NCBI GenBank assembly: GCA_016178725.1
Contig: JACOSV010000058.1
Span: forward strand, 1 to 64,000
Direction of reading: 5' to 3'
DNA: 64,000 nt
From: Candidatus Eiseniibacteriota bacterium
Lineage (GTDB): Bacteria > Eisenbacteria > RBG-16-71-46
Shown: in pieces, positions 55,163 through 60,977 of the stretch
Layout of the letters: every line of letters begins with the position of its first letter
Numbering within the stretch: position 1 is the first letter of the stretch
Translations under genes and position numbers: made by a program
The notes under the pieces: generated by a model
The model's database searches: none
Told to the model about the DNA's origin: nothing
The model's input: the letters and a program-made list of their open reading frames with translations, nothing else

Positions 55163-56341
55163 TCACGCATCGAGGAACCGGCGCGCGGTGCGCAGAAGGA
55201 CCTCGGCGCCGATCGCGAGACAACCCTCGTCGACATCGAACTTCGGATGGTGGTGGCCGTAGACGAGGCCGCGCCCGGTGTTGCGCGAGCCGACGGCGAT
55301 GAAGCAGCCCGGCACCTGGCGCAGGAACGCCGAGAAGTCCTCGCCGCCCATCGTGCGCACGTCGTCGCGCACGTTCTTGGCGCCCACGACCTCGGCCGCG
55401 GCCTCGCGCGCGATCGCCGCCCTCGCCGGATCGTTCACGGTCGGTTGGTTGAAGCGGTGGAAGTCGATCTCGACCGTGCAGCCGAACGCCGCGGCGACGC
55501 CGCGCACGATGCGCTCGAAGTGCCCGGGCAGCGCGCTCCACACCTCGCGGTCGAAGACGCGCACCGTGCCGTTCATCCACGCGCTCTCGGGGATGATGTT
55601 GAACGCGGAGCCGGCCTTCAGCTGCGTGACGCTCACCACCACCTCGGCGAACGGGTTGACGCTGCGGCTCGCGATCGTCTGGAGCGCCGCGATCATGTGC
55701 GCGAGGCACACCACCGGATCGGTGCCGAGGTGCGGCATCGCCGCGTGCGCACCCTTGCCGGTCACGGTGACCGTGAACTCGTCGACCGCGGCCATGAACG
55801 GGCCGGGCGTCACCGCGATGTGGCCGAGGTCGAGATCCTGCCAGACGTGGAGGCCGAACGTCGCGTCGGGTTTCGGATCGGCGAGCGCGCCTTCGGCGAT
55901 CATCGTCTCGGCGCCGCCGCCGCACTCCTCGGCGGGCTGGAAGCACAGCGTCACCGCGCCCTTCATCGACTCGCGCTCGGCGACCAGGCGGCGCGCGATG
56001 CCGAGCAGGATCGACGTGTGACAGTCGTGCCCGCACGCGTGCATCACGCCCGCGGTCTTCGAGCGGTAGGGCGTCTCGTTCTCCTCGTGGATCGGCAGCG
56101 CGTCCATGTCGGCGCGCAGCAGCACCGTTCGGCCGCGCGATCCGCCGCGCACGGTCGCGAGCACGCCGGTCTTCGCGACACCGGTGCGCGGCGTGAGCCC
56201 GAGCGCGCGCAGGCGCTCGGCGACGATGCCCGAGGTGCGCACCTCGTGGAACGCGATCTCGGGGTGCTGGTGCAGGTCGCGGCGGGTCGCGACCATTTCC
56301 TTCACGATGTCCTCGGTGAACGTGGGCGTGAGCGTGGGCAT
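55163..56341 (-). CDS. M20-family amidohydrolase (hippurate hydrolase-like)
   Basis: RRDLHQHPEIAFHEVRTSGIVAERLRALG, VLLRADMDALPIHEENETPYRSKTAGVMHACGHDCHTSILLGIA, FQPAEECGGGAETMI. Confidence 0.95.
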   Translation of the reverse strand: MPTLTPTFTEDIVKEMVATRRDLHQHPEIAFHEVRTSGIVAERLRALGLTPRTGVAKTGVLATVRGGSRGRTVLLRADMDALPIHEENETPYRSKTAGVMHACGHDCHTSILLGIARRLVAERESMKGAVTLCFQPAEECGGGAETMIAEGALADPKPDATFGLHVWQDLDLGHIAVTPGPFMAAVDEFTVTVTGKGAHAAMPHLGTDPVVCLAHMIAALQTIASRSVNPFAEVVVSVTQLKAGSAFNIIPESAWMNGTVRVFDREVWSALPGHFERIVRGVAAAFGCTVEIDFHRFNQPTVNDPARAAIAREAAAEVVGAKNVRDDVRTMGGEDFSAFLRQVPGCFIAVGSRNTGRGLVYGHHHPKFDVDEGCLAIGAEVLLRTARRFLDA

Positions 56342-56412: not shown

Positions 56413-58917
56413 TCACAGGGCGGCGCCGCCGGAGACGACCCACGCGAAGCCGGGGATGCGCAGCACGCCGCCCGAGCGGAAGCGGGCGGCGGCGCGGGCG
56501 AAGCGGCGGCGGAGCCGCGCCCGGTCGGCGAGGGAGAGATCGACGTAGATGTCGCGCAGCGGGCCGCGCACGCCGAGGCTCATCGCCATCCCCTCCTCGA
56601 CGCTGCCCCACACCAGCGGCGCCGCGACGCCCTCGGTCCGCACGCCGCGGAATCCGGCGGCGCGCATCAGCCGCGCCAGCTTCCCGGCGCGCGCGAGCCG
56701 CAGCGGATTCGGCGTGGTCTCGGGGTCGGCGGGCGGCGCCGTGACGAAGGGCCGCGCCACCTCGGCGCGCAGTCGGAAGGTGGGATTCCGCGCCGCCGGT
56801 CCCCAGACCGCGAATGCGGCGCGACCGCCCGGGTGGAGCGCCGCGCGCAGCGCCGCGAGCGCCTCGGCCACGTCGGGGACGAACATCAGCGCGTAGCGCG
56901 AGACGATGCGGTCGAAGCGGCCGCGCGCCGCGGCCGCGACGCGCGTCATGTCGCCGGCGCGGAAGCGCAGGTTGCGCACGCCATGGAGCCGGGCGCGGCG
57001 CCGCGCCACCGCCAGCATGCGCGGCGAGAGATCGGCGGCGAGCACCGAGCCGCGCGGGAGGACGAGCTGCGCGATCGCGATCGCCGGATCGCCCGAGCCG
57101 CAGCCGGCGTCGAGCACGCGCTGGCCGGGGGCGAGCCGCAGCGCACGGATCAGCGCGGGATCCACGGCGGCGAGTCCGTGGAGGAACGTCGCTTCGAAGC
57201 GCTCCCAGCCGGCGGCCGTGCGGTCCCAGTCCTTGCGCACGGTCGCGCGCCAGCGCGCGCGGTCGGACGATGCTCCACCGAACTTCTTCTTCGTCGTGTC
57301 CGGCGCCGCCGGGGCCGGCGGCTTCGCCGGCGCGGGGGCCGGCGCGGGCGCCGGAGCCGCCTTCTTCGTGGTGTCCGGCGGCGCGGCCTTCCGGGTCGTA
57401 TCGGGCGGCGCCATCTTCTTCGTGGTGTCCGGCGGCGCCATCTTCTTCGTCGTATCCGGCGGCGCGGACTCGCCCTGCCGCAGCAGTCGGCGGCGCTCCG
57501 ACTCCTTGCGCAGCACGTCCTTGTTCTGCACCACGAACTCGACGCGGCGGTTCTTCGCCATGTTGAGCACGTTGGTGTTGGGCACGATCGGCCGGCTCTT
57601 GCCGTAGCCCCTGGCGGTGAACTGCTCCGCCTTGAGCTTCGGGAACTTCGCGATGAGATAGGCCAGCACCGAGTCCGCGCGCGCCTCGCTCAGCTTCTGA
57701 TTGAGCTTCTCGGAGCCGCGCGAATCGGTGTGGCCGCCGACCTCGATCTTGAGCTCGGGCCACTGCGTGAGCACCTGGCCGACGATGTCGAGCGTCGGAT
57801 ACGACTCGGGCAGGACGTTCGCCTTCGCCGTCTCGAAGTTCACGTTCTGCAGCCGGATCATGCCGGTGTCGAGCAGCTCGGTCTCGCGCTCGACGACCTC
57901 GATCGGGCAGCCGTCCTTGTCCACCTTGAGACCGGGCGACGTGTCGGGGCAGCGGTCGAGGCCGTCGCACACGCCGTCGCCGTCGGAGTCCTTCGGGCAG
58001 CCGTCCTTGTCCACCGTGCAGCCCTTCGGCGTATTCGGGCACTTGTCGAGCCCGTCCAGGACGCCGTCGCCGTCGGAATCCTTCGGGCAGCCCCTGGCGT
58101 CCACCGTCGCGCCCTTCGGCGTGTCGGGGCATTGATCGACGCCGTCGCACACGCCGTCGCCGTCCGCGTCGCTCGGGCAGCCCTTCGCGTCCACCTTGCA
58201 GCCCTTCGGCGTCCCCGGGCACTGGTCGAGCCCGTCGTAGACGCCGTCGCCGTCGGAGTCGATCGGGCAGCCCTTCGCGTCCACCTTCGCGCCCTTCGGG
58301 GTGTTCGGGCACTGGTCGAGTTTGTCGGGCACGCCGTCGCCGTCGGTGTCGCGCGGCCGCGCGCCGAGCGCGAACGTGATCCCGGCGCCGATCGTGACCA
58401 CGTCGGTGCTGGTGAGCGCCTGATTGTTCGGGATCCAGTGCTGATCGCGCGCCTCGAAGCGCAGCCCGACCTGATCGGTGAGCCAGAAACGCAGCCCCGC
58501 CGCCAGCTCGAGGTTGCCCTGGTTCAGATGATTGCCGGGCGCGCGCACCTGGGCGCCGCCGAACCCGGCCGAGACGAACGGGCCACCGCTGCGGCGCGCC
58601 CACGGCGTGAAGGCGAGGTTGCCGGACGCGTGGATGTAGTTCACGTCGGCGCCGCCGACCATGAGGTCCTCGCCGCTCGGCGTCACGTCGCCGGCGAGCT
58701 CCAATCCCCACAGGGTGTTCGGGAACCAGCCGAGCCGTCCGCCGACCGCGCCGGCATCGCGCAGGGTGAAGCCGTTTGACCGGATCGCCGAGTCGAACAC
58801 GGTGAATCCGCCGAAGGGCGTGACCTCGAAATGGGCGCCGATGGGTTCGGCCGGAACCGGGGCCGCCGTCGTCACGACGAGCAGCGCCGCGGCGATGACG
58901 GACAGACGCACGCGCAC
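56413..58917 (-). CDS. OMP barrel / TSP3 repeats / OmpA C-terminal domain / SAM methyltransferase fusion
   Basis: Signal peptide, beta-barrel, 5x DxDGDGVxDxxDxCPxTPKG, OmpA motif VNFETAKANVLPESYPTLDIVGQVLTQWPELKIEVGGHTDSRGSEKLNQKLSEARADSV, DTTKK linker repeats, then VLDAGCGSGDPAIAIAQLVLPRGSVLAADLSPRMLAVAR. Confidence 0.9.
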   Translation of the reverse strand: MRVRLSVIAAALLVVTTAAPVPAEPIGAHFEVTPFGGFTVFDSAIRSNGFTLRDAGAVGGRLGWFPNTLWGLELAGDVTPSGEDLMVGGADVNYIHASGNLAFTPWARRSGGPFVSAGFGGAQVRAPGNHLNQGNLELAAGLRFWLTDQVGLRFEARDQHWIPNNQALTSTDVVTIGAGITFALGARPRDTDGDGVPDKLDQCPNTPKGAKVDAKGCPIDSDGDGVYDGLDQCPGTPKGCKVDAKGCPSDADGDGVCDGVDQCPDTPKGATVDARGCPKDSDGDGVLDGLDKCPNTPKGCTVDKDGCPKDSDGDGVCDGLDRCPDTSPGLKVDKDGCPIEVVERETELLDTGMIRLQNVNFETAKANVLPESYPTLDIVGQVLTQWPELKIEVGGHTDSRGSEKLNQKLSEARADSVLAYLIAKFPKLKAEQFTARGYGKSRPIVPNTNVLNMAKNRRVEFVVQNKDVLRKESERRRLLRQGESAPPDTTKKMAPPDTTKKMAPPDTTRKAAPPDTTKKAAPAPAPAPAPAKPPAPAAPDTTKKKFGGASSDRARWRATVRKDWDRTAAGWERFEATFLHGLAAVDPALIRALRLAPGQRVLDAGCGSGDPAIAIAQLVLPRGSVLAADLSPRMLAVARRRARLHGVRNLRFRAGDMTRVAAAARGRFDRIVSRYALMFVPDVAEALAALRAALHPGGRAAFAVWGPAARNPTFRLRAEVARPFVTAPPADPETTPNPLRLARAGKLARLMRAAGFRGVRTEGVAAPLVWGSVEEGMAMSLGVRGPLRDIYVDLSLADRARLRRRFARAAARFRSGGVLRIPGFAWVVSGGAAL
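57361..57468 (-). repeat. Four 27-bp in-frame repeats (APPDTTKKM-like) in the linker
   Basis: APPDTTKKM APPDTTKKM APPDTTRKA APPDTTKKA; boundaries approximate. Confidence 0.8.
57901..58350 (-). repeat. Five 90-bp repeats encoding thrombospondin type-3 calcium-binding motifs
   Basis: D(T/S/A)DGDGVxDxxDxCPxTPKGxxVDxxGCPx, five units of exactly 30 aa. Confidence 0.92.
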
Positions 58918-59061: not shown

Positions 59062-60315
59062 TCAGAAGGTGCTCTGGAGCTGGAGGAAGCCTTTGTCGTG
59101 GATGTTGGTCAGGACGTAGCGCTCCTTGTCGAAGAGCCGCAGTCCCTCGACGCCCTGCATCGAGACGCGCCCGAGCTTGAACCCGACGCCGACGTACGCA
59201 CGATCCTCGTAGCGCGAGCCCTGCGAGTTCGGGATCGCGTAGCCCGGCTGATAGACGGTGACGCGGTCGCGCAGCGCGCCGAAGCGGACCGTGAAGCGCT
59301 CGTCGCGCGCGTAGCGCGCCTCGATCTGCATCATCCGGTCGGTCCCGGCGAACGCGCGCGGCACGGTCGCCGACTCGACGTTCCCGGTGCGCTCCTGATA
59401 GAGGCCGCGCCACTCGGCCGCCCAGTGCGCCGCGAGCGCGTGCGTCAGCGTGGTCTCGAGCGACCACTGGCGGCGATAGTCGTGCAGATAGTCGTTCGGC
59501 GTGCCCACCGTCCACACGCCGCTCTTCGCCTGATGGTTCACGGTCGCGATCGTCCAGTCGAATCCCGCGGTCCGCGCCTCGAGCGACCCCCAGACGTACG
59601 AGCCCCAGAGCGTCGTCAGGTGATCGAGGTCCGGGAAGGCGTACGAGACGATGATGCGCTTGACCTGCGGCGTGAGATAGCGGCCGCCCATCTCTGCGCG
59701 CCACGCGGGGCGGTGGACGGCGAACGAGAGCGCCGGCTCGAACGGGTGCTTCACGAACGGCTCCGCCGTCTGGCCGAGCGTCGTCTGGCGGAACGCCCAC
59801 AGGTTGTTGAAAAAGTCCTCGAGCCCGAGCACCGCGCTCATCTGGAACACGGTCGTATCGGCGCCGACGTCGAGGCCGAGCGCGAAATCCTGGCGCGACT
59901 TGTCGTGGAACGGCCGGAACATGAAGTACGGCGTCCCGAACCGGGTCGCGAGATGGAACGAGAAGTCGACGAACTGATAGTCCACCGCGTCGTTCTCGCG
60001 GTCGGTGAACGTGAGCCCGAACCACGCGTTCCGTGCCATCGACGCGCGCAGCTTGGCGTCGATCGAGGTGAACCACTGCCCCGAGGTCAGACAGCCCTGG
60101 CCGGTGCGGAGCGCGAGCGGCGCCCGGCACCATTCGGTCTCCCACGCCTCGGGCGTGCGCGACATGACGTGGTCGAGCAGGCTCTCGTCGTCGCGCTCCT
60201 GCTCTTCGACGCTGAAGGTCGAGAACTCCTCGGTGCCGGCGCACGCGCGCTGCGGCGCGAGGGCCGCGAGCGCGAGGGCGAGCAGCAGCGGGATCGAGCG
60301 GGCGCGCCCGCTCAC
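59062..60315 (-). CDS. Outer-membrane beta-barrel-like protein
   Basis: GTG start at 60315 overlapping the eda stop; SIPLLLALALAALAPQRACAG signal; repeated beta-strand pattern, e.g. DYQFVDFSFHLATRFGTPYFMFRPFHDKSRQDFALGLDVGADTTVF. Confidence 0.7.
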   Translation of the reverse strand: MSGRARSIPLLLALALAALAPQRACAGTEEFSTFSVEEQERDDESLLDHVMSRTPEAWETEWCRAPLALRTGQGCLTSGQWFTSIDAKLRASMARNAWFGLTFTDRENDAVDYQFVDFSFHLATRFGTPYFMFRPFHDKSRQDFALGLDVGADTTVFQMSAVLGLEDFFNNLWAFRQTTLGQTAEPFVKHPFEPALSFAVHRPAWRAEMGGRYLTPQVKRIIVSYAFPDLDHLTTLWGSYVWGSLEARTAGFDWTIATVNHQAKSGVWTVGTPNDYLHDYRRQWSLETTLTHALAAHWAAEWRGLYQERTGNVESATVPRAFAGTDRMMQIEARYARDERFTVRFGALRDRVTVYQPGYAIPNSQGSRYEDRAYVGVGFKLGRVSMQGVEGLRLFDKERYVLTNIHDKGFLQLQSTF

Positions 60316-60977
60316 GCGTGCGCCCGGGCCGCGACGCCCGTGGTCTTCCACTCCGTGTAGCGATCGACGAACGCGCGCGCGCGGCGCGTGATCTCGTCGA
60401 ACTGTCCGGCGGCGGCGAGCCGGGGGTCGGCGAGCGCGGCGCCGAGGCCGATCGCGACGGCGCCGGCGGCGAGGAACGGGATCGCGTTGTCGAGCGTCGT
60501 CCCACCCGAGGCCATCAACGGGATGTCGGGCAGCGGGTCACGGATCACGCGGATGTAGGCGGGCCCGCCGGCGACGCCGACGGGATAGACCTTGATGAGG
60601 TGCGCGCCGAGGTCGCGCGCAGCGACGATCTCGGTCGTGGTGTAGGCGCCGGGGCAGTACATCACGCCCGCGTCGAGCGCCACCTTCGCGACCGCGGCCG
60701 ACGTGTTCGGCGCGATCACGAATTGCGCGCCGGCGTCGAGCGCCGCGCGCGCCTGATCGGCGGTGAGCGCCGTGCCGCATCCGACCACCGCGCCGGGGAG
60801 ATCGGCGAGCGCCCGCATCACGCGCGGCGCCTCGGGCACGGTGAACGTGATCTCGAGATGAAGGATGCCGCCCTTCGCGACGGCGCGCGCCGCCTCGAGC
60901 GCGTCATCAGGCGTGGCGGCGCGGATCGCGGCGACGAACGGGCGCTCACGGAGCGCGGTGAGGGCGGAAGGTTCCAT
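60312..60977 (-). CDS. eda: KDPG/KHG aldolase (bifunctional 4-hydroxy-2-oxoglutarate aldolase family)
   Basis: AIRAATPDDALEAARAVAKGGILHLEITFTVPEAPRVMRAL, VGCGTALTADQARAALDAGAQFVIAPN, YCPGAYTTTEI, HLIKVYP, PLMASGGTT. Confidence 0.94.
   Translation of the reverse strand: MEPSALTALRERPFVAAIRAATPDDALEAARAVAKGGILHLEITFTVPEAPRVMRALADLPGAVVGCGTALTADQARAALDAGAQFVIAPNTSAAVAKVALDAGVMYCPGAYTTTEIVAARDLGAHLIKVYPVGVAGGPAYIRVIRDPLPDIPLMASGGTTLDNAIPFLAAGAVAIGLGAALADPRLAAAGQFDEITRRARAFVDRYTEWKTTGVAARAHA

Follow-up and report, generated by a model that had tools for sequence, protein, structure and literature searches.

Outer-membrane proteins of the OmpA/TSP3 type in one Candidatus Eisenbacteria family share a signal peptide, a beta-barrel, TSP3 repeats, an OmpA domain and a ...DTTKK tail, after which the reading frame stops; this holds for orthologues such as that at locus L031 and for a paralogue on contig C4 of the genome studied here. 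Class I SAM methyltransferases (Methyltransf_25/31/11; UbiE/arsenite/small-molecule type) carry a characteristic motif I and a Rossmann-type core. A literature search for OmpA-methyltransferase fusions found nothing relevant. We analyzed a window of 64,000 nucleotides from a soil bacterium placed in this family (G000; a 3.07 Mb draft assembly of 88 contigs, 89% complete), in which one open frame contains both. The window's OmpA part has all these features of its orthologues, but where they stop its frame continues into a methyltransferase. That methyltransferase, as judged from its sequence and predicted structure, is like other class I enzymes in motif I and core, but it has neither a start nor a ribosome site of its own and lies in frame with an exported protein. 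The relevant features are as follows.

59062..60351, minus strand: gene flanking OmpA on its upstream side; conserved in relatives, matches no Pfam family
58849..58917, minus strand: signal peptide of the OmpA protein, residues 1-23, with cleavage between ...APVPA and EPIG (site read from the translation, not program-predicted)
58372..58890, minus strand: beta-barrel domain, residues 10-182 (Pfam OMP_b-brl, E 1.5e-6)
57910..58350, minus strand: five TSP3 repeats, residues 190-336 (Pfam TSP_3, E 4e-17)
57547..57837, minus strand: OmpA peptidoglycan-binding domain, residues 361-457 (Pfam OmpA, PF00691, E 2.5e-16)
57283..57468, minus strand: low-complexity linker of PPDTTKK repeats and (AP)n, residues 484-545, where the OmpA proteins of relatives end
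57259..57285, minus strand: junction K-FGGASSDR; relatives have a stop, terminator, ribosome site and methyltransferase start here instead
56413..57258, minus strand: class I SAM methyltransferase domain, residues 554-834 plus stop (Pfam Methyltransf_25/31/11)
55163..56341, minus strand: M20 peptidase gene, the downstream flank; same neighbor in G001 and G013 (see below)

Translation of the frame at 56413..58917 (minus strand) gives 834 residues from a GTG start with no internal stop, and the uninterrupted frame and domain architecture reported in the preliminary description match the assembly exactly, by both ORF and Pfam analysis. The start GTG lies downstream of a good ribosome-binding site (GGAGGAGGTTTC, minus strand), with the ribosome site GGAGGAGG immediately 5' of it. 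Signal peptide (by reading only), barrel, TSP3 repeats and PF00691 domain are all those of an OmpA/TSP3 protein, a group whose members end soon after the domain tail; here the frame runs on. Tandem repeats occur in the TSP3 region (90 bases, 57903-58350) and in the linker (27 bases at 57352-57465; 6/24 bases at 57307-57359). Third-position GC content is 0.943 in the OmpA half and 0.947 in the methyltransferase half, against 0.949 in the adjoining M20 gene (0.94-0.95 overall), so both halves look coding. Homologous genes in relatives confirm each half independently, so neither is a chance frame.

In the methyltransferase half Pfam places Methyltransf_25 at residues 601-698 (E 1.4e-19), and motif I is intact (VLDAGCGSGDP), with the GxGxG pattern of class I enzymes. 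In the predicted structure the Rossmann-type core is complete, most of it at pLDDT of about 90 or more, and the linker is predicted to be disordered (pLDDT <50 over all but one of model residues 140-204, fusion 484-548). Because the alignment behind the model held methyltransferase rows only, its OmpA part is poor. The small-molecule methyltransferases GtmA, TmtA and OxaG from the PDB were fold matches of the model, and sequence matches were of similar kinds. Just outside the window, the contig carries another class I methyltransferase on the strand of the fused gene and ~7 kb upstream of it (L074:2040-2876, G000:C50:66040-66876); the two are 40% identical over 128 residues.

The preliminary description had suggested searching relatives with each half separately and checking whether they have adjacent genes or the fusion. 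In relatives, a conserved block comprises a KDPG aldolase gene, an uncharacterized gene, ompA, an M20 peptidase gene and a TPR/aspartyl-protease gene. In a same-genus relative (G001, Candidatus Eisenbacteria isolate WS_11, a MAG, VBPB01000115.1; ompA locus L031) and in a relative from another genus (G013, locus L032), a methyltransferase gene occupies the position it has in the window, after ompA and ahead of the M20 gene in the same orientation, but unfused. OmpA of G001 ends at ...APDTTKKH-TAG, and 266 bases on a separate methyltransferase starts (MPGNLTPARW...); in G013 the end is ...PPDTSQ-TAG, followed 78 bases on by a methyltransferase with a GTG start behind GAGGAGGCAACG (VKPPLGGARW...). 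Both G001 genes and the G013 methyltransferase gene belong to the same Pfam families as the window's halves. Over residues 2-514 the OmpA part shares 67% identity with that of G001, and the methyltransferase is 57% identical to the separate gene of G001 and about 61-62% to that of G013.

Using the OmpA-to-methyltransferase stretch as query against 47 genomes of the phylum, we obtained a continuous open match in one only, the window itself. G013 aligns to the query through its TAG because its two genes happen to share one frame; the ompA stop and methyltransferase start are in frame there with an open spacer (L032:200-280), and readthrough of the TAG would give a similar fusion. In a search of 47 genomes of the class, close methyltransferase homologues (at least 57% identity) were found in four of 20 family genomes, namely the source genome, G001, G013 and G007, the last cut by a contig end; G010 and G018 gave weaker matches, and most remaining family members have no close homologue. 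This patchy presence suggests that loss of the methyltransferase is tolerable. Thus the pattern named beforehand as evidence against a fusion, two genes in relatives with a clear stop between them, is seen wherever the methyltransferase adjoins ompA (G001 and G013), while most other relatives lack a close methyltransferase altogether.

What is missing at the joint was read against these arrangements. All OmpA tails in the family that could be read to their end (more than 20, paralogues included) stop at most 60 residues after NRRVEF, whereas the window's tail runs for 90 residues to DTTKKK and then onward into the methyltransferase. The greater length accompanies extra PPDTTKK units in the window's linker (57352-57465). 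Within ~20-40 bases 3' of the OmpA stop, nearly all relatives have a hairpin with a long GC stem. Hairpins were judged by folding the spacers; a consensus terminator scan requires a T run, and most OmpA-downstream hairpins have none. Spacer folding found no terminator hairpin at the window junction. The sequence across the joint reads ...PDTTKK-KFGGASSDR-ARWRATV, leaving only nine codons between the repeat unit that ends OmpA and ARW, the first residues common to all three methyltransferases. Between the OmpA tail and the GTG at residue 560 there is no in-frame ATG, GTG or TTG, and no stop.

Since the stop, terminator, ribosome site and methyltransferase start are all gone, a single base change is insufficient. 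Loss of the stop codon, proposed in the preliminary description, accounts for the absent stop but not for the missing terminator and methyltransferase start region. The final lysine codon, AAG, could be an altered TAG (relative G008 reads GACACGACGAAGAAG-TAG), but this change alone does not yield the junction. The junction bases have no match of at least 8 bases to the spacers of G001 or G013 that would mark where exactly a deletion began and ended. A chimeric contig joining distant loci is rejected: flanking gene order matches G001 on both sides and G013 downstream, so the joint is local.

A repeat element in the G001 spacer was also considered as the cause and rejected, as it has no match in the source genome. 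This 167-base MITE-like element (L031:3655-3821, G001:C90:8654-8820) sits on the G001 OmpA stop codon and has long terminal inverted repeats (TGTCCCGTACCGGAAAT...ATTTCCGATACGGGACA) with CTAG flanks. G001 carries ~11 near-full copies and G008 diverged ones; the source genome has none.

Overall, we favor, at a probability of roughly one half, a recent local in-frame deletion in this genome that joined two ancestrally separate adjacent genes. Ancestrally, an ompA/TSP3 outer-membrane gene would have stood beside a separate gene for a small cytoplasmic class I methyltransferase. The deletion would have taken the OmpA stop codon and terminator hairpin and, from the methyltransferase, its start codon and ribosome site. 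Translation of the OmpA part would continue from its own good start, with export unchanged, and the methyltransferase, if made, would either be exported as a C-terminal passenger, deprived of SAM, or be clipped off; its cytoplasmic role is probably lost. We infer both this fate and a deletion in the organism rather than in the assembly alone. Divergence of the methyltransferase is not accelerated (window-G013 identity is 61%, versus 54% for G001-G013), which is consistent with a very recent event or with an artefact and shows no sign of a long life as a periplasmic passenger.

An artefact, also listed among the options in the preliminary description, is a serious contender, at somewhat under even odds: the organism may have two genes, with the assembler or library having dropped a GC-rich hairpin and spacer beside the tandem repeats of the linker. 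Immediately before the joint stands one copy of the linker's repeat unit (CCGGACACGACGAAGAAG), tandem repeats of 27 and 6/24 bases occupy 57307-57465, and the piece missing relative to other genomes usually contains a strong GC hairpin. The draft, incomplete state of the assembly and the uniqueness of the fusion point the same way, as do frame breaks in other assemblies of the family, in a flanking gene of G001 and in ompA of G008. The former is the TPR/aspartyl-protease gene (L031:5933-7346), which, compared with its counterpart in the window, is broken in two by a frameshift. In the latter (L050:3700-4650) the frame breaks where the TSP3 region begins and an early TAG lies within the conserved tail; these are either draft errors or marks of a decaying copy. 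However, an equally strong hairpin after the stop of the C4 OmpA paralogue in the same genome was assembled intact, the window's neighboring genes are full-length and free of frameshifts, and the joint is in frame, which random loss would give only about one third of the time.

Internal initiation, which is compatible with a real deletion and does not compete with that reading, would restore a free cytoplasmic methyltransferase from GTG560 or from linker ATGs at residues 493 and 502; we consider it improbable. Such in-frame codons exist, including the GTG singled out in the preliminary description at residue 560 (nt 57240), but that codon has no purine-rich ribosome site in the preceding 20 bases, which weakens the proposal. 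A start there would also remove part of the first predicted methyltransferase helix (model 204-238, fusion 548-582). The linker ATGs lie behind ACGAAGAAG, a weak ribosome site at best, and neither the G001 nor the G013 tail has them, bar one Met in the latter.

We regard a functional, selected fusion as highly improbable, whether OmpA were to anchor or export a methyltransferase working in the periplasm or the product were a processed polyprotein. Both domains are intact, the predicted methyltransferase core is complete, and the linker appears long and flexible in the model. Nevertheless, a conserved fusion would recur in several lineages, and this one occurs in a single genome of the 47, while relatives with both genes keep them apart. 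The periplasm is not expected to contain SAM, and no processing site was identified in the fused protein. The novel bifunctional or processed polyprotein suggested earlier is thus unsupported; in G001 and G013 OmpA stops after ...DTTKKH and ...PPDTSQ, respectively. More improbable still is a species-specific outer-membrane protein that exports or releases a working methyltransferase onto an exported or external small molecule.

Most likely, then, the OmpA-methyltransferase frame arose by a mutational or assembly accident and does not represent a new kind of protein; nothing here points to a new biochemical system. The topological paradox noted at the outset, an OmpA protein of the periplasm joined to a SAM-dependent enzyme, is correct for the assembled frame but largely dissolves, since these are two ordinary neighboring genes joined in one genome. 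The locus serves mainly as a caution: what looks in a draft assembly like a striking "fusion" of many domains comes apart into two ordinary adjacent genes once relatives are aligned. If the deletion is real, the window would hold a gene fusion caught at birth, before selection removed or shaped it.
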